NCBI GenBank assembly: GCA_016215645.1
Contig: JACRIX010000056.1
Location: 1 to 32,855 of the forward strand
Length of the DNA: 32,855 bases
Direction of reading: 5' to 3'
Source of the DNA: Rhodocyclales bacterium
Lineage (GTDB): Bacteria > Pseudomonadota > Gammaproteobacteria > Burkholderiales > Rhodocyclaceae
The notes under the pieces were generated by a model. The model did not search any database, was not told where the DNA came from, and worked only from the letters and a program-made list of their open reading frames with translations. This document shows positions 1,674 to 26,966 of this stretch, in pieces. How positions within the stretch are numbered: the stretch's first letter is position 1; each line of letters starts with the position of its first letter. The translations under genes were made by a program, and so were the position numbers.

Positions 1674-1695
1674 AAAGTCGGCGCTTGCAGGACGG
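1674..1695 (+). repeat. 22-bp dispersed repeat, copy 1
   Basis: It matches AAAGTCGGCGCTGG-N4-ACGG except that the first G of the GG is T (GCGCTTG). It lies 3 nt beyond the stop codon of the toxin gene and forms a direct repeat with copy 2 on the other side of the toxin-antitoxin pair. Confidence 0.75.
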
Positions 1696-1698
1696 CGG

Positions 1699-1998
1699 TC
1701 AACTGCGCTGCAGACGCCTTGTGATAGATGCCGGATCCTGTCGGCAGTCGAGCACGGCCACGACGGTCGCGATGTCTCCTTTCAGGTCGTAGTAAATCGC
1801 GAAAGGAAAGCGTTTGGCGAGCGTTCGATGCAGGTTCTCAACTGGCTTGGGATGGATACCGGCGAAAAGTACCAGCGCATCTATGTCGGAGAAAAGGCTG
1901 TCAAGAAAATACTCGCCGATGCCCGCCTGTTGCTCCTCATAAAATGCATAGCCTTCGAGCAGGTCAGTCTCCGCCGAGTGGGAAATCCTGATTTGCAT
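1699..1998 (-). CDS. RelE/ParE family toxin
   Basis: A 99-residue protein that begins MQIRISHSAETDLLEGYAFY, with the middle and end AKRFPFAIYYDLKGDIATVVAVLDCRQDP, which is the typical order of the ParE/RelE fold (an opening beta strand, two helices, then the FPFxIYY strand and a final strand). Relatives either cut mRNA at the ribosome (RelE) or poison gyrase (ParE); which applies here cannot be told. It starts with an ATGA overlap on the antitoxin stop codon, so the two are translationally coupled, antitoxin first. The cysteine in VLDCRQDP is common in this plasmid-stabilisation subgroup. The length is normal for the family. Confidence 0.85.
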   Translation of the reverse strand: MQIRISHSAETDLLEGYAFYEEQQAGIGEYFLDSLFSDIDALVLFAGIHPKPVENLHRTLAKRFPFAIYYDLKGDIATVVAVLDCRQDPASITRRLQRS

Positions 1999-2222
1999 CA
2001 GTGAGACTTGATTTGGGCGCGAATGCGTTCCTTGGCTTCGTTCCAGGGCGCTATCGATTCCTTACCACTGGCGATGCGGCGCAGGCGCAGCCCAAGCACC
2101 TCGCCATGCCACGCGGGCAGTTCCATGTTTCCACTGGATTGCAAACACAGCGAGTCCCAGAGAGTTTCCATCAGCTTCAACTTTTCCGCAACCGGCATGG
2201 CAACGATGTCAACGGGGGTCAT
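1998..2222 (-). CDS. Addiction module antitoxin (Unstab_antitox-like)
   Basis: A 74-residue protein with the pattern of the putative addiction-module component family: an N-terminal VAEKLKLMETLWDSL helix, then LPAWHGEVLGLRLRRIASGKESIAPWNEAKERIRA. This family is found upstream of ParE/RelE-like toxins, as here. It lacks a recognisable DNA-binding domain of RHH or HTH type, so how it autoregulates is unclear. GGAG 9 nt before the ATG serves as ribosome binding site. The upstream region, 2223-2290, holds copy 2 of the 22-bp repeat. Confidence 0.82.
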   Translation of the reverse strand: MTPVDIVAMPVAEKLKLMETLWDSLCLQSSGNMELPAWHGEVLGLRLRRIASGKESIAPWNEAKERIRAQIKSH

Positions 2223-2268
2223 CAGGGCACTCCTTGTCTTGGTGCAGCTATGGGGCCGATGCTATCAA

Positions 2269-2290
2269 AAAGTCGGCACTGGTGACACGG
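2269..2290 (+). repeat. 22-bp dispersed repeat, copy 2
   Basis: It matches the full consensus (variable bases TGAC) with one change, GCACTGG for GCGCTGG. It is one of only two copies that are not inside a gene. It lies between the antitoxin start (2222) and the lemA promoter region. Confidence 0.8.
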
Positions 2291-2309
2291 CAATGAATTC
2301 ATGGTCCCC

Positions 2310-2338
2310 TTGCAATCGCACTCCATCGCCGCCATATT
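2310..2338 (+). promoter_or_regulatory. Possible sigma-70 promoter for lemA
   Basis: TTGCAA (2310-2315) and CATATT (2333-2338) are separated by 17 bp, each matching 4 of 6 consensus bases. They lie 33-61 bp ahead of the lemA start. This is tentative, based on sequence match only. Confidence 0.35.
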
Positions 2339-2370
2339 CCGGATTGTTTCCCTACCTTATGGAGACCTCC

Positions 2371-3030
2371 ATGCGCACCCGCCTGCTTGTCCTACTCGCC
2401 TTCGCCGCCACCTTGCTCTCCGGTTGCGGCTACAACCAGATCCAGATCAACGACGAAACCGTTACCGCAGCGTGGTCGGAAGTTGTGAACCAGTACAAGC
2501 GCCGCGCCGACCTGATCCCGAACCTGGTATCGGTGGTGCAGGGCTATGCATCCCACGAAAAGGAAGTCCTGACCCGGGTCAGCGAGGCCCGCGCCAACGT
2601 CGCCGGGATCAAGGCGACACCCGAGCTGATCAATGATCCGGCGGCGTTTGCCAAGTTCCAGAAGGCGCAGAGCGAACTGGGCGGTGCGCTCGGACGCCTG
2701 CTGGCGGTTTCGGAAAACTACCCCCAGCTCAAGGCCGACGCCAATTTCCGCGATCTGCAGGCGCAGGTGGAAGGCACCGAGAACCGCATTACCGTGGCGC
2801 GCAACCGCTACATCAAGGCGGTGCAGGAGTACAACATTTCGGTGCGCACCTTCCCCAACAACCTGACCGCCATGGTCATGGGCTGGCAGACCAAGCCCAA
2901 TTTCACGGTGGATGACGAGAAGGCGATCTCGGCGCCGCCGACGATCAAGTTCGACGCGCCGCCGGCGAATCCGGCCGCTGCGCCCGCCGTAGCACCAGCG
3001 CCGACTCCTGCCCCCGCGGCGGCCAAGTAA
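2371..3030 (+). CDS. lemA: LemA family lipoprotein
   Basis: A 219-residue protein. The start at 2371 is favoured over an in-frame ATG at 2359 because GGAGAC sits just ahead and the product then opens with a lipoprotein signal, MRTRLLVLLAFAATLLSGCG (lipobox LSGC). The LemA core follows: VVNQYKRRADLIPNLVSVVQGY, a long helical middle, then ENRITVARNRYIKAVQEYN and VRTFPNNL. LemA proteins are helical, membrane-anchored proteins of uncertain biochemical role, often encoded beside TPM-domain proteins, as here. The tail after about residue 195 is rich in Ala and Pro and contains the antisense copy 3 of the 22-bp repeat. The next gene starts 4 nt after the stop, so it is co-transcribed with the two TPM genes. 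Confidence 0.92.
   Translation: MRTRLLVLLAFAATLLSGCGYNQIQINDETVTAAWSEVVNQYKRRADLIPNLVSVVQGYASHEKEVLTRVSEARANVAGIKATPELINDPAAFAKFQKAQSELGGALGRLLAVSENYPQLKADANFRDLQAQVEGTENRITVARNRYIKAVQEYNISVRTFPNNLTAMVMGWQTKPNFTVDDEKAISAPPTIKFDAPPANPAAAPAVAPAPTPAPAAAK
2987..3008 (-). repeat. 22-bp dispersed repeat, copy 3 (within lemA)
   Basis: On the minus strand it reads GGAGTCGGCGCTGG-TGCT-ACGG, which contains the exact 12-mer core. On the lemA strand it encodes part of the low-complexity AVAPAPTP tail at residues 206-213, shortly before the stop. Confidence 0.7.
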
Positions 3031-3034
3031 GACC

Positions 3035-3877
3035 GTGAAGCAGGTCTGGCCGGCCTGGCTGGCCATTCTCTGGCTGGCCTTGCCCTTCGCGGCACGGGCC
3101 GCCGAGCCGCTGCTGCTGCCGGCCTTGCAGACGCGCGTCACCGATCTCACCGCCACGCTGGACGCCACCCAGCGCGGCCGGCTAGAAGCGCAGCTTGCCG
3201 CCATTGAGCGCGCGGGCAGGGCCCAGGTCGCCGTGCTGTTGCTGCCGACGACGCAGCCCGAGACCATCGAGCAATTCGGCATTCGCCTCGCCGAGGCCTG
3301 GAAGATCGGCCGCAAGGGTGCCGATGACGGCTTGATCATCATCGTCGCCAAGGACGATCGCACGATGCGCATCGAGGTCGGCTACGGCCTCGAAGGCAAG
3401 CTGCCGGACGCGATTGCCAGCCGCATCGTCAACGAACGCATGGCGCCAGCCTTCAAGCAGGGCGACTTTTTCGGCGGCCTGCAGGCGGCGATCACGGCCG
3501 CGGACCAGGCGCTGGGCGGTGCCGGCAGCCCGGGCGAGGCCGCCCCGGCGCCGGCGGTCATGCAGCAGGGCGGCGGTCAGGCGGACTGGATCGAATGGCT
3601 GTTCCTGGTGGTTGCCGGTGCCGGCGTGCTGCGCATGATGTTCGGCCTGCTCGGTTCGCTGGCGGCCGCGGCCATCGGCGGCTGGCTGGGCTTCATGGTC
3701 TTCGGCTCCCTGGGCATTGCCGCCGGCGCGGCGGTGCTGGTGTTCCTGTTGTCCTTCGTCAGCCTGTTCTCCGGCGGTCGCGGTGGCGGTGGCTTCGGCG
3801 GCGGCATGTCCGGCGGCGGTGGATTCTCGGGCGGTGGCGGCGGTTTCGGTGGCGGCGGCGCCTCGGGGAGGTGGTGA
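3035..3877 (+). CDS. TPM-domain membrane protein (YgcG-like)
   Basis: A 280-residue protein with a GTG start 4 nt after lemA. A signal peptide (about residues 1-23, ending AARAAE) is followed by a TPM domain at about 30-160: LTATLDATQRGRLEAQL, QVAVLLLPTT, GADDGLIIIVAKDDR and MRIEVGYGLEG are the standard motifs. Two or three membrane segments follow at about 185-250, then a glycine-rich tail (repeated GGGGFGGG) ending GASGRW. The family is known as TPM_phosphatase; plant members act in photosystem II repair, and the bacterial role is unsettled. It is coupled to the next TPM gene (1 nt between stop and ATG) and probably acts with LemA at the cell envelope. Confidence 0.88.
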   Translation: MKQVWPAWLAILWLALPFAARAAEPLLLPALQTRVTDLTATLDATQRGRLEAQLAAIERAGRAQVAVLLLPTTQPETIEQFGIRLAEAWKIGRKGADDGLIIIVAKDDRTMRIEVGYGLEGKLPDAIASRIVNERMAPAFKQGDFFGGLQAAITAADQALGGAGSPGEAAPAPAVMQQGGGQADWIEWLFLVVAGAGVLRMMFGLLGSLAAAAIGGWLGFMVFGSLGIAAGAAVLVFLLSFVSLFSGGRGGGGFGGGMSGGGGFSGGGGGFGGGGASGRW

Positions 3878-3878
3878 G

Positions 3879-4376
3879 ATGAATCCCATGCGCATGTTGA
3901 AGCACTTGCTGCTGCCCGACTGGTGGCGCCGCCGCGTGTTTGCCGCCGCCGACCTGGCGGCGATCGGCAACGCGGTAAGCGCCAGCGAGCAAACACACCG
4001 GGGCGAAGTGCGCTTTGTCGCCGAAGCCTCGCTGACGGTGTCGGCACTGTGGCGCGAGCTGTCGCCGCGACAACGCGCGGCGGAGGTCTTTGCTGCCGAG
4101 GGCGTCTGGGACACCGAAGAGAACAGCGGCATCCTGATCTATGTGCAGCTTGCCGACCGCCGCGTCGAGATCCTCGCCGACCGCGGTATCGCCGCGCACG
4201 TGCCGCAAGCCGAATGGGACGCCATCTGCCGCGGCATGGAGCAGGCCTTCCGTGCCGGGCAGTGGCGTCAGGGCGCGCTACAGGCCGTGGCGCGCGCCGG
4301 CGACTTGCTGGCGGCGCACTTTCCCGCCGCTGCGACCAATCCCAACGAACTGCCCGACCAGCCCCTGATGCTGTGA
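3879..4376 (+). CDS. TPM-domain protein, soluble type
   Basis: A 165-residue protein, second TPM-domain gene of the lemA cluster. The ATG at 3879 follows the previous stop by 1 nt, with GGGAGGTGG as ribosome binding site. Family landmarks are the N-terminal LPDWWRRRVF segment, EVRFVAEASL, LSPRQRAAEVFAAEGVWDTE, SGILIYVQLADRRVEILADRGI and QAEWDAICRGMEQAFRAGQW. No signal peptide or membrane helix is evident, unlike its upstream partner. The combination LemA, membrane TPM protein and soluble TPM protein recurs in betaproteobacteria. The molecular function is not established. Confidence 0.88.
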   Translation: MNPMRMLKHLLLPDWWRRRVFAAADLAAIGNAVSASEQTHRGEVRFVAEASLTVSALWRELSPRQRAAEVFAAEGVWDTEENSGILIYVQLADRRVEILADRGIAAHVPQAEWDAICRGMEQAFRAGQWRQGALQAVARAGDLLAAHFPAAATNPNELPDQPLML

Positions 4377-4411
4377 CGCGGCCGGCCGATTCGCTCGGCT
4401 AGACTGCCGCA

Positions 4412-5779
4412 ATGTCCCCCTCCCGCTCCCTGCCGCGCGAACTGTTGCACCTGGCCTGGCCGGTGCTGATCGCCCAGGCGGCGGTGATGGCCACCAGCGT
4501 GATCGACACCCTGATGGCCGGTCGTCTTTCGGCGCTGGATCTGGCCGCCGTCGGCATCGGCGCCAGCATCTATGCCACGGTTTTCGTTACCGCCATGGGC
4601 GTGCTGCTGGCGCTGACTCCGGTGGTCTCGCACCACTACGGCGCCGGCCGCTACACCGAGATCGGTGCCGACGTGCGCCAGTGCGCCTGGCTGGCGGTGC
4701 TGCTGTCGATCGCCACCTTTGCGCTGCTGAAGAACCCCGATCCGCTGCTGGCCATCTCGCGCCTGACGCCGGAGGTCGAGGTCCGGGTGCGCGCCTACCT
4801 CGACGGCGTGGCCTGGGCGGCGCCCGGCGTGCTGTTCTTCCGCGTCTTCTTCGGCTTCACCACCGGCATCGGCCGGCCGCGCCCGGTGATGGCCTTCAAC
4901 CTGCTCGGCCTGTCGCTGAAAGTGCCGCTCAATGCCGTTTTCATGTACGGCCACCTCGGCCTGCCGGCGCTGGGCGGCGCCGGTTGCGGCTGGTCCACGG
5001 CGGTCACCGCCTGGATCATGACGCTGGCGGCATGGTGGTGGTGCCGGCGCGACGCCGACTACGCGCCCTATGCAGTCTTCGCCCGCTTCGATCCGCCGCG
5101 CCCGCGAGCCCTGCGCGAACTGCTGAAACTCGGTTTGCCGATGGGCATCACCTTCCTGGTCGATGTCACCGCCTTCACCTTCATGGCCCTGTTCATCGCC
5201 CGCCTTGGCGCCGCCACGTCGGCCGCGCACCAGATCGCGGCCAACGTCGCGGTCTTCGTCTTCATGGTGCCGCTGGCCCTGGGCAATGCCACCGGCGTGC
5301 TGGTCGGCCTGGCCCTGGGCGCCGGTGAAAGTCGGCGCGCACGACACGCCGGTTTGCTCGGGCTCGGCGTCGCCTGCGGCATCGCCGGCGCGACCGGCGG
5401 CGCGATCTGGTTCGGCGCCGGGCTGATCGCCCGCGCTTACACCACCGACCTGGCGGTGGCCGCCGCCGCGACCAGCCTGCTCGCCATCGTTGGGGTCTAT
5501 CACGCGGTCGATGCGGTGCAGGCAGTGATGGCCCAGGTGCTGCGCGGCTACAAGCGCGCCACCGCGCCGATGCTGATCTATGCCGTATCGCTGTGGGGCG
5601 TGGGCCTCGGCGGCGGCTACCTGCTCGGCCTCACCGATGCGTTTGGCGCAGCGCGCGGTGCGGCCGGGTTCTGGACGGCGGCGGTGGGTAGCCTGACGCT
5701 GGCGGGGGCCGGGGTGACGGGGTATTTTCTGTGGGTTTCGCGTCAGAGCATGCCGACGCCGGAGGCGACCACCAGATAG
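4412..5779 (+). CDS. MATE family multidrug/Na+ efflux transporter
   Basis: A 455-residue protein of normal MATE length, with about 12 hydrophobic segments in two related halves. Typical motifs include LAWPVLIAQAAVMATSVIDTLMAGRL in helix 1 and the second-half counterpart LLKLGLPMGITFLVDVTAFTFMA. The family exports cationic drugs and dyes in exchange for Na+ or H+ across the inner membrane (NorM-like); the substrate is not readable here. Copy 4 of the 22-bp repeat falls in the loop GAGESRRARHAGLL (residues 306-313). The 3' end overlaps the convergent yqaA-like gene by 37 bp. No strong ribosome binding site is seen before the ATG. Confidence 0.9.
   Translation: MSPSRSLPRELLHLAWPVLIAQAAVMATSVIDTLMAGRLSALDLAAVGIGASIYATVFVTAMGVLLALTPVVSHHYGAGRYTEIGADVRQCAWLAVLLSIATFALLKNPDPLLAISRLTPEVEVRVRAYLDGVAWAAPGVLFFRVFFGFTTGIGRPRPVMAFNLLGLSLKVPLNAVFMYGHLGLPALGGAGCGWSTAVTAWIMTLAAWWWCRRDADYAPYAVFARFDPPRPRALRELLKLGLPMGITFLVDVTAFTFMALFIARLGAATSAAHQIAANVAVFVFMVPLALGNATGVLVGLALGAGESRRARHAGLLGLGVACGIAGATGGAIWFGAGLIARAYTTDLAVAAAATSLLAIVGVYHAVDAVQAVMAQVLRGYKRATAPMLIYAVSLWGVGLGGGYLLGLTDAFGAARGAAGFWTAAVGSLTLAGAGVTGYFLWVSRQSMPTPEATTR
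5328..5349 (+). repeat. 22-bp dispersed repeat, copy 4 (diverged, within MATE gene)
   Basis: It reads AAAGTCGGCGC and ends GACACGC; 17 of 22 positions match the majority consensus. The middle GCAC replaces TGGT. This is the weakest of the ten copies and could be chance. Confidence 0.45.
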
Positions 5780-6171
5780 CGCGCGCCTTTGCCCAGCGCC
5801 ATCCACAGGGTGCAGGCCAGCGCTGGCAGGCGCAGCCAGCCGGCGGCGGCGCACAGCGCGTCGCCGATCACGGGTGCCCAGGCCAGCAACAATGCGGGCG
5901 CGCCGTGGCGGCGCAGGGTTTCGAGGTGGCGAGTCGCCGTGTCTCCAGCGCCGACTCTTTGCGGCAGCAGGCGGCCCATGGCATAAGTGCTCATGCCGCC
6001 CAGCGTGTTGCCCAGCGTGGCCAACACCAGCGCCGGCATGGCCTGCTCCGGATGGGCCAGCAACAGCGCCGCGAGCACCGCCTCCGAGCCGCCCGGCAAT
6101 AGCGTTGCGGCAAGGAAGCTGGCAAGGAAAAGGCCGGCCAGGCCGGCCTCTGCGGTGAAGGCGAAGTCCAT
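5743..6171 (-). CDS. yqaA: YqaA-like VTT/DedA-related inner-membrane protein
   Basis: A 142-residue protein with the E. coli YqaA pattern: FLASFLAATLLPGGSEAVLAALL, ATLGNTLGGMSTYAMGRLLP, HGAPALLLAWAPVIGDALC, AAGWLRLP and GKGARYL. It carries about four hydrophobic segments, and the SNARE-associated/VTT-type domain is associated with lipid scramblase or transport functions; the precise role of YqaA is unknown. The loop after MGRLLP (residues 72-78, RVGAGDT) is encoded by copy 5 of the 22-bp repeat, in a position that varies between homologues. It is divergent from ilvA, with only 46 bp between the start codons, so the two probably share a promoter region. Confidence 0.82.
   Translation of the reverse strand: MDFAFTAEAGLAGLFLASFLAATLLPGGSEAVLAALLLAHPEQAMPALVLATLGNTLGGMSTYAMGRLLPQRVGAGDTATRHLETLRRHGAPALLLAWAPVIGDALCAAAGWLRLPALACTLWMALGKGARYLVVASGVGML
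5937..5958 (-). repeat. 22-bp dispersed repeat, copy 5 (within yqaA)
   Basis: On the minus strand it reads AGAGTCGGCGCTGG-AGAC-ACGG, with the exact 12-mer core. It is in the sense orientation of the gene and its codons start in register, giving R-V-G-A-G-D-T. Confidence 0.8.
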
Positions 6172-6217
6172 GCCGCATGTTACCCTCTGCGGTTACCGCC
6201 CTTTTCACACCGCCGTC

Positions 6218-7735
6218 ATGGACTACCTCGAAAAAATCCTCAACGCCCGCGTCTATGACGTGGCCATCGAAACGCCGCTGGAGCTGGCACCCATCCTGTC
6301 GGCGCGCAGCGGCAACCGCATCCTGTTCAAACGCGAGGACATGCAGCCGGTGTTCAGCTTCAAGCTGCGCGGCGCCTATAACAAGATCGCCCACCTGCCG
6401 CCGGCGCAGCGCAAGCGCGGGGTGATCTGCGCCTCGGCCGGCAACCACGCCCAGGGCGTGGCGCTGTCGGCGCAGAAGCTGGGCATTCGCGCGGTGATCG
6501 TGATGCCGACCACCACGCCAGCGATCAAGATCGATGCGGTGAAGAAGCGCGGTGGCGAGGTGGTGCTGGCCGGCGATTCCTACGATGCCGCCTACACCCA
6601 TGCGCTGGAACTGGAGAAGAAGCAAAAGCTGTGTTTTGTGCACCCCTTCGACGACCCGGACGTGATCGCCGGCCAGGGCACCATCGGCATGGAGATCCTG
6701 CGCCAGCATCCGGACCCGATCGACGCCGTGTTCTGCTGCGTCGGCGGCGGCGGCCTGATCGCCGGCGTGGCGGCCTACATCAAGCGCCTGCGGCCGGGTA
6801 CCAAGGTGATCGGCGTCGAGGCCATGGATGCCGATGCCATGGACCGTTCGCTGAAGGCCGGCAAGCGCGTGCGCCTGGAATCCGTGGGCCTGTTCGCCGA
6901 CGGCGCGGCGGTGAAGTACGTCGGCCAGGAAACCTTCCGCCTCTGCCAGGAGTACGTTGATGAGATGGTGCTGGTCGATACCGACGCCATCTGCGCCGCG
7001 ATCAAGGATGTGTTCGAGGACACGCGTTCCATCCTTGAGCCGGCCGGCGCGCTGGCCGTGGCCGGCGCCAAGGAATGGGCGCGGCGCAACAAGGCGCAGG
7101 GCAAGACCCTGGTCGCGGTGGCCTCGGGCGCCAACATGAATTTCGATCGGTTGCGCTTCGTCGCCGAGCGCGCCGAGGTCGGCGAACAGCGCGAGGCGGT
7201 GCTGGCGGTGACCCTGCCGGAGAAGCCCGGCGCCTACAAGAAGTTCGTCGCCCTGATCGGCAGCCGCAACATCACCGAGTTCAACTATCGCTACCACGAT
7301 GCCGGCGAAGCCCATGTCTTTGTCGGCATGCAGGTGGCCAACCGCGTCGAATCGACGCGCCTGGTCGAGCAGTTGACCAGGCACGGCTATGCCACGCTCG
7401 ACCTGACCGACGACGAGATGGCCAAGAACCACGTCCGTCACATGGTCGGCGGCCATGCGCCGCAGCTCAGTGGCGTCAAGTCGAACGAGTTGCTCTACCG
7501 CTTCGAGTTCCCCGAGCGTCCCGGCGCGCTGATGAATTTCCTCAACCGCATGAGCGCCGGCTGGAACATCAGCCTGTTCCATTACCGCAACCACGGCGCC
7601 GACTACGGCCGGGTGCTGGTCGGCATGGAAGTGCCGCCGAAGGAGATGAAGGATTTCCGCGCCTTCCTCAAAAACCTCGGTTATCGGCACTGGGACGAGT
7701 CGAAGAACCCGGCCTACCGCCTGTTCCTGGGATAA
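6218..7735 (+). CDS. ilvA: Threonine ammonia-lyase, biosynthetic (threonine dehydratase)
   Basis: A 505-residue PLP enzyme that deaminates threonine to 2-oxobutanoate, the first step towards isoleucine. The PLP lysine is Lys49 in FSFKLRGAYNK; SAGNHAQGVA and the glycine loop CCVGGGGLIAG bind the cofactor phosphate. Two ACT-like regulatory domains follow from about residue 325 (EKPGAYKKFVALIG and ERPGALMNFLNRM), as expected for the isoleucine-inhibited, valine-activated long form. I chose the ATG at 6218 because it matches the family N-terminus (MDYLEKILNARVYDVAIETP); the frame is open upstream but that part overlaps yqaA. The next gene starts 1 nt after the stop. Confidence 0.95.
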   Translation: MDYLEKILNARVYDVAIETPLELAPILSARSGNRILFKREDMQPVFSFKLRGAYNKIAHLPPAQRKRGVICASAGNHAQGVALSAQKLGIRAVIVMPTTTPAIKIDAVKKRGGEVVLAGDSYDAAYTHALELEKKQKLCFVHPFDDPDVIAGQGTIGMEILRQHPDPIDAVFCCVGGGGLIAGVAAYIKRLRPGTKVIGVEAMDADAMDRSLKAGKRVRLESVGLFADGAAVKYVGQETFRLCQEYVDEMVLVDTDAICAAIKDVFEDTRSILEPAGALAVAGAKEWARRNKAQGKTLVAVASGANMNFDRLRFVAERAEVGEQREAVLAVTLPEKPGAYKKFVALIGSRNITEFNYRYHDAGEAHVFVGMQVANRVESTRLVEQLTRHGYATLDLTDDEMAKNHVRHMVGGHAPQLSGVKSNELLYRFEFPERPGALMNFLNRMSAGWNISLFHYRNHGADYGRVLVGMEVPPKEMKDFRAFLKNLGYRHWDESKNPAYRLFLG

Positions 7736-7736
7736 G

Positions 7737-15613: not shown

Positions 15614-19312
<3,699 letters not shown>

Positions 19313-19393
19313 GCGTCTCTCCAATCCATGACCGGGGCGGGGAGCGATGCCGATGTGCTGCTCACCCTGTGCCCCGGGGGATGTCCTCGGGTT

Positions 19394-19474
19394 GGTGAGC
19401 GCCGTTGAAAACAGGTTCCGAGCCTAGGGTCGCGGCCCGCAGATGCAGGCCCGACCTTGCAGCGCTCCTCGAAA
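19394..19474 (-). ncRNA. S-adenosylhomocysteine (SAH) riboswitch upstream of metH
   Basis: The minus strand reads 5' to 3': TTTCGAG, then GAGCGCTGC, a variable GC-rich hairpin, AGGCTCGGAA, a short linker, and AACGGCGCTCACC. TTTCGAG pairs with CTCGGAA to close stem P1 (seven pairs, one G-U), and GAGCGC... can pair with the 3' GGCGCTC segment as the pseudoknot. These are the conserved blocks of the SAH riboswitch class, known upstream of ahcY and metH in beta- and gammaproteobacteria, where SAH binding turns expression on. It ends 81 nt before the metH start. The call rests on motif recognition and pairing by eye. Confidence 0.88.
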
Positions 19475-19484
19475 GCGAGGCGCG

Positions 19485-19490
19485 ATTATA
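19485..19490 (-). promoter_or_regulatory. -10 box of the metH riboswitch transcript
   Basis: A perfect TATAAT on the minus strand, placed so that transcription would start about 10 nt ahead of the riboswitch stem P1. No good -35 hexamer lies 17 bp upstream (AGTCGA at 19508-19513 is a poor match), so an activator such as a MetR-type protein may be involved; that is inference. Confidence 0.6.
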
Positions 19491-19525
19491 ACGCCGCGGC
19501 GCGGGCGTCGACTCTCAGGGGCGCA

Positions 19526-19960: not shown

Positions 19961-20018
19961 GTTGGATTCCAGGAAAGATGATGAGTGCCGCGATCCGACC
20001 GGATCATCGGCGAAGAGT

Positions 20019-20504: not shown

Positions 20505-20578
20505 GCCGCGATGATACCGGAGCGCGGCCGGCGGCAAGGCCAGTGGTCTACAATGCGCTTATCGACAAAGGAGTTGCC

Positions 20579-20971
20579 ATGGAACACCTGACCCCCAAGG
20601 AAGCCGCCCAGTTTCTTCATGACAACCCCAAGGCCCTGTTCGTCGATTGCCGCAGCGAAATGGAGTTCCTCTTCGTCGGCCATCCGGCCGGTGTGTTGCA
20701 TGTGTCCTGGAACGACGGCCCCGATTGGGAGGTCAATCCCCACTTCGTCGGTGAGGTGAAAAAGTATGCCGGCCATTCCCACGACCGCCCGGTAGTGTTG
20801 ATCTGCCGCAGCGGCAACCGCTCGGTCGATGCCGGCAATGCGCTGGAGGCCGCCGGGTTCACCAGCGTCTTCAACGTCCTGCACGGCTTCGAGGGCGAAC
20901 TCGACGACAGCCACCATCGCGGTTCGATGAACGGCTGGCGCTTCGAAGGCCTGCCCTGGGAACAGTGCTGA
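20579..20971 (+). CDS. Cytoplasmic rhodanese-domain sulfurtransferase
   Basis: A 130-residue single-domain rhodanese without a signal peptide. AAAGGAG lies 6 nt ahead of the ATG at 20579, which decides the start. Catalytic Cys76 is in ICRSGNRSVDAGNALEAAGF; the N-terminal half has LFVDCRSEMEFLFVGHPAGV, and the C-terminal half has VFNVLHGFEGELDD. The pattern resembles single-domain thiosulfate sulfurtransferases of the GlpE/PspE class. TACAAT at 20549-20554 is a possible -10 box. It is convergent with the DUF3135 gene. Confidence 0.88.
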   Translation: MEHLTPKEAAQFLHDNPKALFVDCRSEMEFLFVGHPAGVLHVSWNDGPDWEVNPHFVGEVKKYAGHSHDRPVVLICRSGNRSVDAGNALEAAGFTSVFNVLHGFEGELDDSHHRGSMNGWRFEGLPWEQC

Positions 20972-20988
20972 GCTGACCGGGCCGGCGC

Positions 20989-21342
20989 TCAGGCCTGGCG
21001 GGCGCCGGTATCGGAGCGCAGGGCCAGCGCCAGTCGTGCGGCCCCCTGGTGGGTCGTAGCGTCGAAATCGCGCATGCAGCTGCCGAGCGTTTCGAGTTCT
21101 TCGCTGAGGAAGGCCACCTGGTCCCACATCATTTTCGATATCGCCGACAGCGCCGCCTGGGGCGTTCCGGCGCGGCCGATTTCGTAGTCGATTTCACGTT
21201 GCAGTGCGTTGCCCAGCCTGCGCTGCGCGTCGCCGGAGGTGTCGAGGAAGGCCTTGATGGCCGCCCGACGACGCACTTCGAAGCCCTCTGGCGATTCCTT
21301 CGCCAGAAGCGCCCACTCCTGAAAATCAAATCCGGTTTCCAT
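20989..21342 (-). CDS. DUF3135 family protein
   Basis: A 117-residue protein; GGAGGGGAC precedes the ATG. The DUF3135 pattern is evident: FDFQEWALLAKESPEGFEVRRRAAIKAFL, QRRLGNALQREIDYEIGRAGTPQAALSAISKMMWDQV. The rest is a helical extension with no known motif. The function is unknown, and the protein is expected to be cytoplasmic and mostly helical. Confidence 0.78.
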   Translation of the reverse strand: METGFDFQEWALLAKESPEGFEVRRRAAIKAFLDTSGDAQRRLGNALQREIDYEIGRAGTPQAALSAISKMMWDQVAFLSEELETLGSCMRDFDATTHQGAARLALALRSDTGARQA

Positions 21343-21468
21343 GTGCTGTCCCCTCCAGGAATTCACATAGCAATGTGCCAGCGGTATCACCCACGCGCCA
21401 TCCGGCAACACCGCGTAACCAGAATAGCAAGTTGAAGCCTGAAAGAATAGCGAGGAATTCACGCACAC

Positions 21469-21487
21469 CGGCGGGAAATGCCCGCCG
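21469..21487. repeat. Inverted repeat ahead of the ScsD-like gene
   Basis: CGGCGGG-AAATG-CCCGCCG, a perfect 7-bp stem just upstream of the ATG at 21497. It could be an operator or an mRNA hairpin that hides the start; there is no T tract, so a terminator is unlikely. The rest of 21343-21496 shows no clear element. Confidence 0.45.
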
Positions 21488-21496
21488 TCGGCTACC

Positions 21497-22105
21497 ATGT
21501 CGACGATGCGTTTTCCCCAGCTACCCAATCCCTTTGCCTCACTCAAGCGCTGGCAACGCCTTCTGCTGGAAGGCGCGCTGATCCTCGCCGTGATCCTCGG
21601 CGCCCAGTATTGGCAGACGCGCGGTTTGCCGGAAGGTGCTGCGCCGCCGCTCGAGGGCGTGCTTACCGACGGAACAACTACAAGAGTCGGCGCTGGTGAA
21701 GCCCCTGCGCAGCAGGGCGGTCGAGCAAAAAACGCTCTCCTCGCCGCTGCGGATGATAAGACGGCGAATGCCCCCACCCTGGTCGCCTTCTGGGCGACCT
21801 GGTGTCCGGTGTGCTCGGCGGAAGAGGGCAACATTGTTGCGGTGGCGAAGGATCATCGTGTCGTTTCGGTGGCGATGCAGTCGGGCGACGCCGCGACGGT
21901 GACGAAACACTTGAAGGAGCGCGGCATCGCGCTGCCGGCACTGGTCGATGTCGATGGCCGCCATGCGCAGAACTGGCGGGTGCGCGGTGTGCCGACGCAC
22001 TTCGTCGTCGATGGCGCCGGCAACATCCGCTTTCGCGTGGTCGGCTATGCGACGACCTGGGGCCTGAAAGCTCGGCTGTGGTGGGCGGAGACATTTCCGG
22101 CGTGA
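21497..22105 (+). CDS. Membrane-anchored thiol oxidoreductase (ScsD/TlpA-like) with in-frame insertion
   Basis: A 202-residue protein with one N-terminal membrane anchor (about residues 22-38) and a periplasmic thioredoxin fold. The active site is WCPVC (Cys103 and Cys106) in FWATWCPVCSAEEGNI; the cis-proline loop is GVPTHFVVDG and the end is GLKARLWWAETF. Relatives such as ScsD and TlpA reduce or shuttle disulfides in the periplasm. Between the first strand (LEGVLTDG) and the strand before WCPVC there is an unusually long, low-complexity stretch, residues 60-92, encoded by copy 8 of the 22-bp repeat plus a palindrome. The MFS gene follows with a GTGA overlap. Confidence 0.83.
   Translation: MSTMRFPQLPNPFASLKRWQRLLLEGALILAVILGAQYWQTRGLPEGAAPPLEGVLTDGTTTRVGAGEAPAQQGGRAKNALLAAADDKTANAPTLVAFWATWCPVCSAEEGNIVAVAKDHRVVSVAMQSGDAATVTKHLKERGIALPALVDVDGRHAQNWRVRGVPTHFVVDGAGNIRFRVVGYATTWGLKARLWWAETFPA
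21683..21704 (+). repeat. 22-bp dispersed repeat, copy 8 (within ScsD-like gene)
   Basis: AGAGTCGGCGCTGG-TGAA, with the final ACGG replaced by GCCC. It is sense and in codon register, giving R-V-G-A-G-E-A at residues 63-69. The palindrome CCCTGC-GCA-GCAGGG follows directly. Confidence 0.75.
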
Positions 22106-23457
22106 GTGCTCCTGCACCAAAGTCCGCGGCAGCGGACCAAACTCGGTCACCCCCTTTCCCGGAAAGGGGGCCGGGGGGAAAGCTCTTGTTTCCACCGACC
22201 ACGCTTGCGTGGTCGGTCTGGGGCCTCGGTGCACTGCTCTACCTGATCGGTTTCTACCTGCGCGTGGCGCCGGCGGTGATCACCGACCAGCTGATGACCG
22301 AGTTCGCCATCACCGGCGCGGCACTGGGCAATCTCTCGGCCTTCTATTTCTATTCCTACGTGGCGATGCAGATCCCGACCGGCATGATCGCCGACCGCTG
22401 GGGCCCGCGCCGCCTGCTCACCGTCGGCGCCGGCGTCGCGGCGCTGGGCACGGCGCTGTTCGCCTTCGCGCCGACCATCTTCTGGGCCAATATGGGGCGG
22501 CTCTTGATCGGCGCCTCGGTGGCCGTGGCGTTCGTCTCGATGCTGAAGCTGGCCAGCCACTGGTTCGCGCCGAAACAATACGCGCTGGCCTCGGGCATGG
22601 CGCTGTTGATGGGCGTGGTCGGCGGCGTGGTGGCGGGGGTGCCGCTGCGTTACCTGGTCGAGCTTTTCGGCTGGCGTTCGGTGATGGGCGTCTCGGCGGC
22701 GCTGACGGCGGTGCTCTGTGTCGCCACCTGGCTGCGCGTGCGCGACGATCCGGTGGAGCGCGGTTACGCCAGCCACTATCAGGGCGCGCATGGCGCCCAT
22801 GGTTCCGGCTCGCTGCTGCGCGGACTGATCGATGTGCTGTCCTATCGCAACATCTGGATCCTGACCGCGGTGCCGATCGGCTTTTCCGGCGCGGTGCTGA
22901 CCTTCGCCGGGCTCTGGGGCGTGCCCTACCTGCGTCAGGTGCATGGCCTGGACCCCAAGGCCGCCGCCGCCATCACCTCGATCCTGCTGGTGGCCTGGGC
23001 GCTGGGCGGGCCCATGCTCGGCAGCTGGTCGGAACGCATGGGCCGGCGCAAGCGGCTCTACCTGGCCGCCTCGGGCGTGGCGCTGCTCGGCTGGGTAGCG
23101 ATCATCTTCCTGCCGCTGCCCTTGTGGGCGCTGGTGCTGCTGCTGATCCCGACCGGTTTCGCCTCGGGCAACATCATCATCGGCTTTGCCTGGGCCAAGG
23201 AATCGGTGCCGCTGCGGCTGGTGGGCACGGCCTCGGGCTTCTGCAACATGGGGCCGCTGCTGGGCGGCATGCTGCTGCAGCCGGCAGTGGGCTGGATGCT
23301 CGACCGGCGCTGGGACGGCGCCCTGCAGGCCGGGGTGCGGGTCTATGACGCCACCGCCTACCGCGACGGCTTTGCGCTGCTGGTCGGGGTGATGGTCGTC
23401 GCCGGCGTGATCCTGATTTTCGCCCGCGAAAGCCATTGCAAACAGATGCACGATTGA
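22102..23457 (+). CDS. MFS transporter
   Basis: A 451-residue protein if the GTG at 22102, overlapping the previous stop, is used. The core begins at about residue 35 (AWSVWGLGALLYLIGFYLRVAPAVITDQL). About 12 membrane helices are present, with the MFS signature loop MIADRWGPRRLLTVGAG between helices 2 and 3 and the second-half counterpart GSWSERMGRRKRLYLAASG. An alternative TTG start at 22186, with GGGGGA ahead, would leave out an odd 28-residue N-terminus (ADQTRSPPFPERGPGGK and neighbours) that is encoded by two palindromes and fits no known MFS sequence. The substrate is unknown. Confidence 0.85.
   Translation: MSAPAPKSAAADQTRSPPFPERGPGGKLLFPPTTLAWSVWGLGALLYLIGFYLRVAPAVITDQLMTEFAITGAALGNLSAFYFYSYVAMQIPTGMIADRWGPRRLLTVGAGVAALGTALFAFAPTIFWANMGRLLIGASVAVAFVSMLKLASHWFAPKQYALASGMALLMGVVGGVVAGVPLRYLVELFGWRSVMGVSAALTAVLCVATWLRVRDDPVERGYASHYQGAHGAHGSGSLLRGLIDVLSYRNIWILTAVPIGFSGAVLTFAGLWGVPYLRQVHGLDPKAAAAITSILLVAWALGGPMLGSWSERMGRRKRLYLAASGVALLGWVAIIFLPLPLWALVLLLIPTGFASGNIIIGFAWAKESVPLRLVGTASGFCNMGPLLGGMLLQPAVGWMLDRRWDGALQAGVRVYDATAYRDGFALLVGVMVVAGVILIFARESHCKQMHD
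22122..22192. repeat. Two adjacent palindromes at the ScsD-like/MFS junction
   Basis: GTCCGC-GGCA-GCGGAC (22122-22137) is followed by the near-perfect palindrome CCCCCTTTCC-C-GGAAAGGGGG (22150-22170). The second sits in an element bounded by CACCCC (from 22148) and CTCTTGT (to 22189), the same ends as the element at 11547-11606. CTCTTGTTTC is identical at both sites. Confidence 0.6.
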
Positions 23458-23458
23458 G

Positions 23459-24235
23459 ATGAGCCCCGACATCCTTTGCCAACGCGATGGCGAGATCGCC
23501 ACCGTCACCCTGTTCAATCCGACCAAGCTGAATGCGCTGAACGCGCACATGTGGGCGCGCCTGCGCCAGGTGATGCACGAGCTGACGGCGGACCGCTCCT
23601 TGCGCTGCGTGATCTTGCGCGGCGAAGGCAGGACTTTTGCCGCCGGCGGCGACCTGGAGGAATTCAAGACCGCGCGCGCCGATGTCGATCGGGCCCTGGC
23701 CTATCACGAGGCGGTGGGCGAAGCGCTGACGGCGATCGAGTCCTGTCTCCACCCTACCGTGGCGGCGATCCAGGGCGCCTGCGTCGGCGGCGGTCTGGAA
23801 ATCGCCAGCGCCTGCGACCTGCGCATCGCGGGCGAGGGCGCGAAGTTCGGCGCACCGATCATGAAGCTCGGCTTTTCCATGTATCCGGGCGAACTGGCGG
23901 GCTTTCTCAAGCTGGCCGGCCCGGCCGTGGCCAAGGAGATCCTGCTCGAAGGTCGCCTGTTCGGCGCCGCCGAGGCCTATGCCAAAGGCCTGCTGACGCG
24001 CGTGGTGGCCGACGATGCGGTGTCGGCCGAAGCGCAGGCCACGGCGGCGCGCATCGCTGCCGGAGCACCGCAGGTGGCGCGCTGGCACAAGCAGTGGATT
24101 GCGCGCCTGATGGAGGCTCGTCCGCTGACGCTGGAAGAGAAGCGCGCCTCGTTCGCCTTTCTTGGCACCGAGGATTACGCCGAAGGCATGGTGGCCTTTG
24201 CCGACAAGCGGCCACCGCGCTTCACCGGGAAATAG
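23459..24235 (+). CDS. Enoyl-CoA hydratase/isomerase family protein
   Basis: A 258-residue crotonase-fold protein; the ATG follows the MFS stop by 1 nt. Oxyanion-hole segments are GRTFAAGGDLEEF and IQGACVGGGLEIASACDLRI. The first of the two catalytic glutamates of true hydratases is kept (GGGLEIA), whereas the second, expected in the PEI motif after GAKFG, is replaced: the text reads FGAPIMKLGFSMYPGELAG. Family knowledge says loss of that residue argues against standard hydratase activity, so isomerase, lyase or thioesterase activity is as likely. A helical C-terminal trimerisation segment is present. The gene ends before a compound hairpin. Confidence 0.85.
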   Translation: MSPDILCQRDGEIATVTLFNPTKLNALNAHMWARLRQVMHELTADRSLRCVILRGEGRTFAAGGDLEEFKTARADVDRALAYHEAVGEALTAIESCLHPTVAAIQGACVGGGLEIASACDLRIAGEGAKFGAPIMKLGFSMYPGELAGFLKLAGPAVAKEILLEGRLFGAAEAYAKGLLTRVVADDAVSAEAQATAARIAAGAPQVARWHKQWIARLMEARPLTLEEKRASFAFLGTEDYAEGMVAFADKRPPRFTGK

Positions 24236-24240
24236 CCTCT

Positions 24241-24288
24241 CAAGAAACACGAAGGGCCGCCCCGAGTGTTTCTTGGCCCCTTGAGGGG
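24241..24288. terminator. Compound hairpin between convergent genes
   Basis: CAAGAAACAC (24241-24250) pairs perfectly with GTGTTTCTTG (24266-24275), followed by CCCC-TTGA-GGGG (24277-24288). It fills the 88-bp gap between the crotonase and GST stop codons. The 10-bp stem could end transcription from both sides, although no T tract of the classical kind follows; it may equally be an intergenic palindromic repeat. Confidence 0.5.
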
Positions 24289-24323
24289 AGAAACGAGCAA
24301 AGCGAGTTTTTCGGGGTGGGCGT

Positions 24324-25097
24324 TCAGTACGGGCTGGGCCCCTCAAAGTCGGCGCTGGCGCCACGGTGACGTGAGTAGATGTCGCGCACCCATTGTGCCG
24401 CCGGATGCTTCTGGAAAGGCGCAATCAGTTCGGCGAACAGGGAGTCGAGCGGTTGCGGGCATTGCATCGGCGAGTTCGCCGGCCGCACCAGGGTAGCGAG
24501 GGTGCTTGCGGCGGTGATGTCGGCGAGGGTGAAACGATCGCCGACCAGGTAGCCGGTGGCGGTGGCCTGTGCCGCGACGAACTCCATGGCTTCGCGGCCG
24601 GCGGCGATGCCGTCGGCAACCGCTGCCGCGCCGGTGATGCCGTTGCCCTTCCTGACGATGGGTGCCGCCAGTGGCACGATCAGGGAATACAGGCGCCGCT
24701 TCAGCGGCGACTCGGCTTCGCCGAAGACGGCGGCGAAGTAGCGCGGACGGCGCAGCAGGGCATCGAGCACGGCGCGGCGGATGCGTGGTGTGATGTCCTC
24801 GTCGAAACGGCGCTGGATTGCCAGCATCTGCTCGCGTTGCGCGGGATCGTCCGGCATCAGCCGTGGTTCGGGATGCCGTTCTTCCAGCCAGTCGAGGAGG
24901 CGCGCCGAGCCGTCGATCACGGCGCCGTCATCCATCACCAGCACCGGTGTCTGGGTGCGCCCGGTGAGCTTCTTCACCACGCCCATGTGCGGCCCCGGCA
25001 GCAGGCTGCGACGGCGGTGCGGCACACGCTTCAGATCCAGCGCCCAGCGCAGCTTCTCGTTGTAGGGGGAATGGCGGAACTGCAGCAGCTCGATCAT
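24324..25097 (-). CDS. Glutathione S-transferase family protein
   Basis: A 257-residue protein; GGAGG lies ahead of the ATG at 25097. The thioredoxin-like N-terminal domain has MIELLQFRHSPYNEKLRWAL with the Ser/Tyr pair common in this subgroup, VLVMDDGAVIDGSARLLDWLEE (the glutathione-binding SAR/ES loop equivalent) and PQP-less cis-Pro at TQTPVLV. The helical C-terminal domain follows from about residue 90, with YLVGDRFTLADITAAS. The last seven residues before EGPSPY (residues 245-251, RGASADF) are encoded by the antisense copy 9 of the 22-bp repeat, so the C-terminus is probably altered. It is the last gene of the dsb operon. Confidence 0.85.
   Translation of the reverse strand: MIELLQFRHSPYNEKLRWALDLKRVPHRRRSLLPGPHMGVVKKLTGRTQTPVLVMDDGAVIDGSARLLDWLEERHPEPRLMPDDPAQREQMLAIQRRFDEDITPRIRRAVLDALLRRPRYFAAVFGEAESPLKRRLYSLIVPLAAPIVRKGNGITGAAAVADGIAAGREAMEFVAAQATATGYLVGDRFTLADITAASTLATLVRPANSPMQCPQPLDSLFAELIAPFQKHPAAQWVRDIYSRHRGASADFEGPSPY
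24345..24366 (+). repeat. 22-bp dispersed repeat, copy 9 (GST C-terminus)
   Basis: AAAGTCGGCGCTGG-CGCC-ACGG, exact core, antisense to the GST gene. It encodes its residues 245-251 and ends 21 bp before its stop codon. The compound hairpin at 24241-24288 lies nearby. Confidence 0.8.
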
Positions 25098-25117
25098 GTG
25101 TGGCCTCCGGCAGCAGA

Positions 25118-25768
25118 TTACGTCGCGGCGCGCAGCGCCTGGTCGACCAGCTCCTTCAAGGCTTCGTAGCCGAAGCTCGGCAGCGGCCGGCCGTTGACGA
25201 AGAAGTCCGGGGTCTTGCGCACACCCAGTGTTTGGGCGTCGAGCAGGTCCTGGTCGATGACGCTGGTGATTTCCGGCGCCGCCATGTCGCTGCGCAGGCG
25301 CTGCAGGTCGACGCCGGCCCTTTCCAGCAGCGGCCAGATGCGCCCGGGCTGCACGGCGTGGTTCTGCACCCATTCGCCCTGGCTGGCCAGCAGCGCTTCC
25401 AGCGCCGGCCACAGTTTGTCCTGTTTGCGCGCGGCTTCGAGCGCCGCCACGACCTGGTCCGAGCCCGTGTGGAAGGGTGCGTAGCGCAGCACCAGGCGGA
25501 TCTTTTGCGGGTTGGCGGCGAGCAACTGCTTCACCATCGGGTAAAAGGCGGCGCAGGTCTCGCAGGCCGGATCGATGAACTCGACAATCACCACCGGCGC
25601 ATCCTGCGGGCCGAGGCTCGGCGAATGCATGCGCAGCAGCGCGGCCTGATTGGCGCTGGCGAGCCGCGTGGCCTGATCCTCACGCTCGACGTTGTAGATC
25701 AGGGTGGCGATGATGAAGGCCATGAAGAGGCTCACCAGGGCGACCGTGAACAAGGTCTTGCGCTTCAT
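25118..25768 (-). CDS. DsbA/DsbG-like periplasmic thiol-disulfide protein
   Basis: A 216-residue protein with an N-terminal signal anchor (LFTVALVSLFMAFIIATLIY) and a DsbA-like thioredoxin fold with the active site CETC (Cys69 and Cys72, in FIDPACETCAAFYPMVKQ). The helical insert runs from about 95 to 165, and the cis-proline loop is VRKTPDFFVNGRPLPSFG. The N-terminal ATG overlaps the dsbB stop (ATGA), so it is the partner of the DsbB-like protein upstream. The CxxC pair CETC differs from classical CPHC and is expected to change its redox potential, though the direction is not predictable by eye. It likely oxidises periplasmic proteins. Confidence 0.88.
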   Translation of the reverse strand: MKRKTLFTVALVSLFMAFIIATLIYNVEREDQATRLASANQAALLRMHSPSLGPQDAPVVIVEFIDPACETCAAFYPMVKQLLAANPQKIRLVLRYAPFHTGSDQVVAALEAARKQDKLWPALEALLASQGEWVQNHAVQPGRIWPLLERAGVDLQRLRSDMAAPEITSVIDQDLLDAQTLGVRKTPDFFVNGRPLPSFGYEALKELVDQALRAAT

Positions 25769-26220
25769 GCCGTGCTCCTGGCGCGCGCCACCAGCAGCAG
25801 CGCGATGATTGCGGAAAACGCCGTTACGGACAGCAGCGGGATGGTCACGAAGCCGAACCAGACGGCGACGGTTTGCGAACAGGGTACTCCCTGGGTACAG
25901 GCCTTGATGTTTTCCGGGATCACGCCCGCGACCAGCAACAGGTGAAACAGGGCCAGCAACAGGCCGGGCGCGGCCAACGCCAGGCAGTAGCGGATCAGCT
26001 TGCGGTCGAGCGGGAACAGGCCGAGCGGCAGGATCAGGGCCAGCGGAAACATGAAAATGCGCTGATACCAGCACAGCATGCAGGTCGGCAGGTTCATCAC
26101 TTCGCCGAAGAACAAGGCCCCCAGGGTAGCGGTGGCGGCGATCATCCAGGCGACAAAGAGCGCTCGCCAGGCAGCGGTATCCGCCATCTCCGGACCATCG
26201 GGCAGGTTCCTGGCGACCAT
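25765..26220 (-). CDS. dsbB: DsbB-like disulfide bond formation protein (BdbC-type)
   Basis: A 151-residue inner-membrane protein with four hydrophobic segments and two cysteine pairs on periplasmic loops: CMLC (Cys47 and Cys50, in NLPTCMLCWYQRIFMFPL) and Cys108/Cys114 in ACTQGVPCSQ. The loop order is the standard DsbB/BdbC design, which passes electrons from DsbA to quinone. The start at 26220 lies 2 nt after the LolA-like stop; MADTAAW at residue 12 is another possible start. It forms a pair with the CETC protein that overlaps it. Confidence 0.9.
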   Translation of the reverse strand: MVARNLPDGPEMADTAAWRALFVAWMIAATATLGALFFGEVMNLPTCMLCWYQRIFMFPLALILPLGLFPLDRKLIRYCLALAAPGLLLALFHLLLVAGVIPENIKACTQGVPCSQTVAVWFGFVTIPLLSVTAFSAIIALLLVARARSTA

Positions 26221-26222
26221 GT

Positions 26223-26966
26223 TCAGCTTCCGGCGCCGGTCGCGTCACGCCCGGAAGCCGCGGCGCGCTGTTCGGATGACGGCGGGTCGAAAGTCGGCGC
26301 TGGCAACACGGCGGGGAACTCGACGTCTTCCAGCGTGGTGCTGCCGATGTATTGCCCCATGGCGAAATGGCGTTCGGTCATGGCGACGCGGCGGCCGGAA
26401 ACGGTTTGGTAATTTTCGTAGCCGGTGGCGAATTCCATCGAGGAATTGTTGATCGTCAATATGCCGCGCGAGCGCATGATCAGCCGGGTTTCCGGATCGA
26501 TTTCGATGATCATCCGGATGCCGTCCCGTACCCGCCATTCCAGGCTGCGGACCTGCTTGCCGTTGCCCAGCGGCAAGGCGCCGAGGTCGCGGACCTGTTC
26601 GACGTTGTCGCGCAGCCGCCAGGGCAGGGCCATGCGTGCCGCCTGCAACACCACCGCGCCGTGAAACGCCGGTGTCGCCGGCTGGCCCTGCTGCCAGGCG
26701 TCGGCGCCGCGCATCAGCCGGGATTCGGGCGCGCCCGGATAACGGATCTCGATGCGGAAGCGGTCCGGCGCCAGCCACCAGCGTTCCACCGGGCCGTTGC
26801 CACGACGCAGGGATTCGGTACTGCCGCGCTCATGGATTGCGCTTGGCGTTGCGCCGCCGCCATGCGCGGCGACCACGTCGGCGAGAAAGTCGCCGAGGTC
26901 GGCACGCGTCGCGCCGGTGAACAGCAGTGCGACAAGGGCGAACAACAGCCTGGCGGAATTGGGCAT
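26223..26966 (-). CDS. Periplasmic LolA-like protein of unknown function
   Basis: A 247-residue protein with a signal peptide (MPNSARLLFALVALLFTGAT, cleavage near TRA). The sequence SRLMRGADAWQQG, QVRSLEWRVRDGIRMIIEIDPETRLIMRSRG and GRRVAMTERHFAMG is reminiscent of LolA/LppX-type half-barrel proteins that carry lipids or lipoproteins, but the similarity is structural-pattern only. The last 30 residues, a Pro/Ser/Ala-rich tail, include LPAPTFD encoded by the antisense copy 10 of the 22-bp repeat (residues 219-226). It lies in the middle of the operon, upstream of dsbB. Confidence 0.6.
   Translation of the reverse strand: MPNSARLLFALVALLFTGATRADLGDFLADVVAAHGGGATPSAIHERGSTESLRRGNGPVERWWLAPDRFRIEIRYPGAPESRLMRGADAWQQGQPATPAFHGAVVLQAARMALPWRLRDNVEQVRDLGALPLGNGKQVRSLEWRVRDGIRMIIEIDPETRLIMRSRGILTINNSSMEFATGYENYQTVSGRRVAMTERHFAMGQYIGSTTLEDVEFPAVLPAPTFDPPSSEQRAAASGRDATGAGS
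26290..26311 (+). repeat. 22-bp dispersed repeat, copy 10 (LolA-like C-terminus)
   Basis: AAAGTCGGCGCTGG-CAAC-ACGG, exact core, antisense to the LolA-like gene. It encodes LPAPTF in the variable tail. Confidence 0.8.

Follow-up and report, generated by a model that had tools for sequence, protein, structure and literature searches.

The 32,855-nucleotide contig analyzed here (JACRIX010000056.1 of the Rhodocyclales bacterium assembly GCA_016215645.1; "the window" below is this whole stretch) carries copies of a 22-bp word, AAAGTCGGCGCTGG-N4-ACGG, that is dispersed over both strands of its genome at hundreds of sites. Judging from its copy number, placement and distribution, we consider it likely that the word is a DNA uptake sequence, a self-tag that would favor the uptake and recombination of DNA from a cell's own or a related species. 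It is also probable that this is a third, independently evolved uptake code, in which two fixed blocks, AAAGTC and ACGG, flank a middle of exactly 12 bases forming the species dialect, in a clade of Rhodocyclaceae and, with the middle re-written, in a distant genus of that family.

The genome that holds the window is a metagenome-assembled genome (MAG) of 3.41 Mb in 106 contigs, with a completeness of 79.6%. Across this genome, the 22-bp search word matched 570 sites at three or fewer mismatches (272 forward and 298 reverse), compared to 13 for the reversed pattern. In 413 kb of the genome, the window included, 71 sites were found, while ten order-5 Markov simulations yielded 0-5, and five scrambled words used as a control gave 0-1 sites at three or fewer mismatches. 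For the window by itself, dinucleotide shuffles led us to expect 0.05 sites, and 8 were observed. An earlier note made from the window's letters had held that the copies exceed chance and had proposed a genome-wide count against a background model; the excess is evident at the level of window, sample and genome, with the genome-wide count far above the reversed control and the sample count far above the Markov simulations.

We re-checked the coordinates of all ten window copies and scored mismatches over the 18 specified bases. The copies, together with the gene that holds two of them, are as follows.

1674..1695, plus strand: motif copy with 1 mismatch, intergenic by our own gene calls
2269..2290, plus strand: motif copy with 1 mismatch, lying upstream of lemA (2371-3030) and intergenic by our own gene calls
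2987..3008, minus strand: motif copy with 2 mismatches, within the LemA gene, in its C-terminal tail
5328..5349, plus strand: diverged copy with 4 mismatches, in a MatE transporter gene (4412-5779)
5937..5958, minus strand: motif copy with 1 mismatch, in a gene (5743-6171) whose VTT-domain match lies slightly under the Pfam cut-off
15614..19312, minus strand: metH (B12-dependent methionine synthase), with two motif copies inside, the basis of the 30-genome comparison below
17398..17419, minus strand: motif copy with 1 mismatch, in metH, encoding K-V-G-A-G between two Pfam domains
18272..18293, plus strand: motif copy with 0 mismatches, antisense to metH and between two Pfam domains (PRRPASADF)
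21683..21704, plus strand: half copy with 4 mismatches, in a thioredoxin-like gene (21497-22105)
24345..24366, plus strand: motif copy with 0 mismatches, close to the 3' end of a GST-like gene (24324-25097, minus strand)
26290..26311, plus strand: motif copy with 0 mismatches, close to the 3' end of a predicted gene without a Pfam match (26223-26966, minus strand)

Eight of the ten copies are strong, with two or fewer mismatches, and all eight fall within the three-mismatch cut-off. The coordinate check reproduced the earlier observation that seven copies match AGTCGGCGCTGG fully and two more with a single mismatch. The count of ten itself stands only in part: the copy at 5328 had been flagged as diverged, and may be a relic or a chance match, but the one at 21683 had been listed without comment although it retains its first 14 bases (with one change) and has lost its second half.

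A logo built from 68 sites with their flanks located the information between position -2 and about +24, with little outside, and gave a consensus of roughly [CT][GA]RRAGTCGGCGCTG[GA][CT]G-nn-ACGG[CT]Ga with an information content of ~35 bits, a value conditioned on the search word. Thus, the repeat is real, but the 22-bp consensus first proposed was somewhat short, and the full word is a two-part sequence of ~26 bp consisting of AAAGTC, 12 bases and ACGG. The spacer between the two blocks is fixed. In 380 kb of the genome, 26 matches had a spacing of 12 compared to 1 for all other spacings from 8 to 16 combined, and 400 kb of a second genome, the one-contig G080 of genus g19, gave 31 at spacing 12 and 1 elsewhere in that range. 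Outside the ~26 bp, solo copies share no sequence in the flanks sampled.

Sites were assigned to genes using a simple codon-usage gene finder, which called 90.6% of the window genome sample and 89.7% of the G080 sample coding. Of the 71 sites in the window genome, 53 lie in genes, 16 are intergenic and 2 run across a gene edge, while the 86 sites in G080 divide into 60, 24 and 2, respectively. Intergenic DNA is two- to threefold enriched for sites (p 0.0007 in the window genome and p 4e-6 in G080), even though the majority of sites are still intragenic. The description of the repeat as mostly inside genes and on both strands was therefore borne out, with the strands being balanced in the sample (35/36) as they are genome-wide. 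Within genes, sites in the same direction as the gene are nominally more numerous than those in the opposite direction (31 vs 22 in the window genome and 35 vs 25 in G080), and same-direction sites favor the reading frame AAA-GTC-GGC-GCT (26/31 and 23/35, respectively). When counted per 5 kb, sites are spread a little more evenly than expected at random, with variance/mean ratios of 0.75 (p 0.046) in the window genome and 0.76 (p 0.055) in G080. The AT-richest fifth of sequence intervals is poor in sites, at 0.19 per 5 kb in the window genome, where the reference density is about 1.0, and at 0.44 per 5 kb in G080.

The earlier note had also proposed looking for the motif in related genomes. 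To this end, 199 genomes from 68 genera of the family, drawn evenly from a larger group, were searched at two or fewer mismatches; judged from the names of matched records, this family appears to be Rhodocyclaceae. Twenty-two genomes from seven genera, hereafter motif-rich, contained 225-792 sites, compared to 0-4 for controls, and the next-highest genomes contained 43, 23, 18 and 14. When 399 genomes of the order were surveyed, the rich ones were four of the 13 family members drawn, and none of the 386 genomes from other families was rich, with a maximum of 5 sites, indicating that the motif is clade-bound. Among the matches listed in a search of named records, exact copies were found in Sulfuritalea MAGs, Sulfurisoma sediminicola, Rugosibacter MAGs and many Rhodocyclaceae MAGs, mostly at one or two per locus (single copies in the Sulfurisoma sediminicola record and the Sulfuritalea MAGs), and also in records labeled, for example, Thiobacillus, Tepidicella and Casimicrobiaceae. 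Of the named relatives in this set, the closest were Sulfuritalea MAGs, which match the window at 78-79% over about 3.5 kb and another contig of the same genome at 86.7% over 1.6 kb; NCBI taxonomy places Sulfuritalea under Sterolibacteriaceae. Separately, a few copies, many of them exact and some clustered on particular contigs, were present in the motif-poor genomes G056 (contigs C66 and C104), G209 and G279, which may reflect binning contamination or recent transfer.

The metH gene allowed the motif to be followed at a single locus, since MetH was found in all 30 genomes chosen (22 motif-rich and 8 others). Copies were counted twice, in the longest open frame per locus and then in the exact gene span, with the same outcome, although for the longest frame four motif-poor genomes gave an opposite-strand shadow frame and G151 a cut frame. 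A copy at three or fewer mismatches was present in 20/22 motif-rich genomes vs 0/8 others, and the two motif-rich exceptions, G181 and G045, have a partial MetH gene. The copies occur at several positions and on either strand, and different genera can have a copy at the same site without disruption of the reading frame. The encoded peptide is PRRPASADFSLRL in genomes with the motif and PRAIPQIERKLRL in those without it. Because the peptide changes with the motif, it is the DNA and not the protein that is conserved, in agreement with the earlier argument that protein conservation cannot explain the copies. The companion claim that copies avoid conserved domain cores, which we evaluated for MetH only, held for the two window sites (copies at about residues 340 and 630 lie between Pfam domains) but not for copies of relatives at about residue 1060, which lie inside the activation domain. 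The inter-domain stretches of MetH differ in length and sequence from genus to genus, and two of them hold motif copies (the window's 18272 and 17398 region). In a tree of this one gene from the 30 genomes, the 22 motif-rich genomes form one clade (100/98) together with G023 (43 copies), which is nested on a long branch, and G029 (6 copies), which sits at the base of the clade in a placement that the tree leaves open.

Logos for the seven motif-rich genera (11 to 86 sites each) revealed a common skeleton with differences between genera. The word ends in ACGGCAC in g19 and in ACGGYGa in the window's own genus, while the dialect of genus g45 reads AAAGTCGACG. A further dialect emerged from a genome that is poor in the main word, G010, in which an 11-mer scan of 80 kb found AAAGTCAGTCC nine times vs 0.01 expected; 12 of the 14 sites within one mismatch of it end in ACGG at the same spacing. 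Near MetH residue 340, G010 has AAAGTCAGTCC...ACGG where its relatives have the main dialect, so both ends of the word are kept in this distant genus, g10, and the middle is changed. We then searched the 199 genomes for the skeleton AAAGTC-N12-ACGG without mismatches (controls up to 27). More than 100 matches were present in 25 genomes, namely the 22 motif-rich ones and three of genus g10, G010 (467), G073 (405) and G121 (461). The fourth g10 genome drawn, G155, contains only 7, which looks like a loss inside the genus. Outside the family, skeleton matches never exceeded 22 in 386 genomes (G279, control 7).

Additional dialects were read by eye in G023 (94 skeleton matches, 44 of them read), which has AAAGTCAGCGCCGGCG-, in G149 (68), which has AAAGTCAG[CT]CGT-, and in G114 (38), which has a looser AAAGTCAG-. 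In G023 (genus g23) two dialects occur together, a AAAGTCAGC- form next to exact copies of the main dialect (8 of the 44 matches listed), perhaps like the "peregrine" DNA uptake sequences mentioned in a passage of PMC3630211. A de novo word scan of 80 kb each from seven genomes poor in the main word (G053, G010, G050, G015, G018, G042 and G057; 5 kb of the G015 sequence is N) detected a dispersed motif in G010 and none in the other six. The scan also picked up a simple tandem repeat in G042 (L530-L533), CTTTGGCTTTGG, with 9 copies in 80 kb, that is unrelated to the motif. Taken together, the dialects share a conserved core and follow subclades, as judged on the one 30-genome gene tree.

According to a 2025 paper (PMC12616744), Neisseriaceae and Pasteurellaceae are the only families known to discriminate DNA by uptake sequences. 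The word described here resembles the DNA uptake sequence (DUS) of Neisseriaceae, whose receptor is the minor pilin ComP, in having hundreds of copies on both strands, within and between genes, in having dialects round a conserved core and, in the one genome G080, in forming inverted pairs. The DUS itself is GCCGTCTGAA, however, and the logos of the seven genera show a different and longer word; furthermore, no DUS-specific receptor was found among the pilins examined. Our word is ~26 bp in two blocks, in contrast with the continuous motif of up to ~13 nt described for DUS in a passage of PMC12616744. As reported in part of PMC3630211, intragenic DUS are common and intergenic regions are permissive. 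The uptake signal sequence (USS) of Pasteurellaceae is the closer parallel in being a long discontinuous motif that is found genome-wide and in phages and has one orientation commoner in genes. Sections of PMC2346458 and PMC6776037 state, respectively, that one orientation of DUS and USS is commoner in reading frames and that temperate phages of USS hosts carry USS, and PMC12616744 gives a USS core of AAGTGCGGT or ACAAGCGGT with AT-rich regions downstream and a predicted receptor, ComN/PpdA. Unlike USS, our logos contain neither core and no AT-rich flanks, and the middle changes between dialects. The statement that the repeat is longer than known uptake signals needs qualification, since its strongly specified part exceeds the 9-12 nt cores of DUS and USS but USS extends to 32 nt when its AT-rich flanks are included (PMC12616744). 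Among the papers listed for the motif string and further strings in the open-access PubMed Central (PMC) literature, all appear unrelated from their titles and, for the motif string, abstract starts. No open-access PMC paper combines uptake sequences and natural transformation with Rhodocyclaceae, and none of the other papers listed is, by its title, about uptake in this group; in neither case is absence proof.

In the mechanism that we propose, a copy on free DNA would be recognized by a receptor borne on a type IV pilus, and the bound DNA would enter via ComEC and replace its homolog, leading to gradual enrichment; of these steps the enrichment is what we observe. Since fragments with a copy would enter more often, copies born by mutation would be favored and could spread by uptake and recombination. 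The receptor would presumably be a minor pilin that changes along with the dialect.

In favor of this proposal, ComEC is encoded in 21/22 motif-rich genomes (the exception being the window's ~80%-complete MAG). A number of observations weigh against it. ComEC is present in 66/68 genomes overall, and so does not track the motif. Type IV prepilins were present in the six genomes searched, but the candidate receptor families do not distinguish genomes with and without the motif: ComP_DUS (PF16732) matched 65/68 genomes, and 13/13 in a second set (two being repeats), while GspH/FimT-type pilins (PF12019) matched 43/47. The four GspH-negative genomes (G045, G046, G138 and G010) are all motif- or skeleton-bearing, and G045 also lacks a ComP_DUS match, suggesting that neither profile is needed unless diverged members were missed; in G046 a FimT-like frame is present despite the missing match. 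In the ComP_DUS, GspH and N_methyl matches that were inspected, we found no minor pilin with the same distribution as the motif. In addition, the skeleton-bearing G010 falls apart from the main clade in the MetH tree, so that a single origin requires losses or transfer. The depletion of sites in AT-rich DNA cannot be credited to avoidance of foreign islands either, since the ten genes taken from the lowest-GC intervals of the window genome sample (six of the bottom eight) are ordinary and look chromosomal, among them cbb3 oxidase, ilvB/ilvC, pepA and lptF. An inverted partner, typical of DUS, where such pairs act as terminators, accompanies 13/86 sites in G080 (12 of the 13 in predicted genes) vs 1/71 in the window genome, and the stems of these pairs lack a U-tract. 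Finally, a mild strand excess was seen in the first ten stretches of G080 (13 plus/27 minus, unadjusted p 0.04).

Further pilin leads were pursued and dropped. An apparent orphan GspH class looked, by eye, mostly like an MSHA-type pilin operon. When 72 prepilin frames identified by a regular expression were clustered from four motif-rich genomes, part of the window genome, the motif-poor G029 and the intermediate G023, a FimT-like cluster contained the four motif-rich genomes only, and two small clusters resembling type II secretion system pilins contained two of them. However, by-eye inspection of pilin frames in 45 genomes, not all of which supplied both partners, showed FimT with the same C-terminal tail in the motif-poor G003, G018, G031, G053, G081, G083 and G155, and neighboring PilE-like and FimT-like frames have the same tails in motif-rich and motif-poor genomes.

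Compound units, consisting of a motif, an inverted copy and a motif at 53-54-bp spacing, were found at five positions in G080, where they may constitute a repeat derived from the motif.

L212, 3717-3850: compound unit
L213, 4257-4335: compound unit
L208, 9815-9893: compound unit
L217, 19286-19365: compound unit
L204, 7570-7645: compound unit

Five of the inverted pairs in G080 were folded, giving stems of up to 19 bp and z values from -1.5 to -3.9.

Of the three explanations offered in the earlier note, an uptake-type signal fits best, given that the copies are numerous, lie on both strands and mostly within genes, prefer one frame, have a clade-bound distribution and form dialects. Genome-wide sites for a chromosome-organizing or repair protein, such as a nucleoid protein, FtsK-guiding sites or Chi-like sites, are an unlikely explanation. 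Even spacing and conservation within the clade would fit such sites, dialects could track a co-evolving DNA-binding protein, and the strand excess in the first ten G080 stretches points the same way. Guiding and Chi-like sites, however, are short and strongly polar, whereas the second ten stretches gave 22 plus/24 minus, genome totals are balanced, and no strong strand polarity was apparent in the 20 stretches of G080 together, which weakens the chromosome-organizing option. Moreover, ~500 copies of a ~35-bit word are far above the site numbers known for matS, parS and SlmA.

A small mobile or REP-like self-copying element, the remaining explanation in the earlier note, is very improbable. It would account for the compound units of G080, with their regular spacing and inverted arm, and the word does resemble repetitive extragenic palindromic (REP) sequences and bacterial interspersed mosaic elements (BIMEs) in its hundreds of short dispersed copies and in some palindromic units in G080. 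Those repeats are intergenic palindromes, though, while three quarters of our copies are inside predicted genes and single copies are not palindromic; sampled solo copies have no flank similarity outside ~26 bp, the same MetH site is used across genera with its frame intact, and the dialects are genus-specific. Least probable of all, and hardly to be expected, is that the word serves as a self-tag recognized in the cell interior instead of at the pilus, as by a nuclease or restriction-like system. Its two-part build with a constant spacer does recall the sites of multi-subunit DNA enzymes, and phage genes that carry the word could gain protection, but the word is far longer than Type I sites and is abundant in a minority of genera only.

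Because self-specific uptake is on record for two families, its origin, spread and dialect change are known from two cases. Both are known mainly from animal-associated bacteria. If the word is an uptake sequence, the third case would be environmental (Sulfuritalea-related) and would have a longer code in two parts, no fewer than five dialects and an apparent in-genus loss. The many motif-poor relatives within the family would then allow origin, loss and the co-evolution of the receptor to be studied as a natural experiment, and the contrast between G155 and its three g10 relatives would be useful in the hunt for a receptor. A tag added to DNA might also ease the transformation of these sulfur-oxidizing and aromatic-degrading bacteria.

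The motif is also found in predicted viral sequence. At least 120 stretches of IMG/VR contigs carry an exact copy, and 80 loci (L368-L447) were analyzed. Their density beyond the recruiting copy was 0.062 per kb, compared to 0.15-0.18 in two hosts. Ten motif-overlapping genes of predicted phage contigs include family matches to a terminase large subunit (L428), a phage transposase (L401) and a reverse transcriptase (L411). With a gene finder trained on hosts, 60/100 exact copies fell outside predicted genes, a larger share than in the hosts. On one of these contigs (L399:883-2237), four exact copies are spaced by 316 bp and a fifth follows after 385 bp, one per tandem unit, and by eye the units resemble integron cassettes with attC-like ends.

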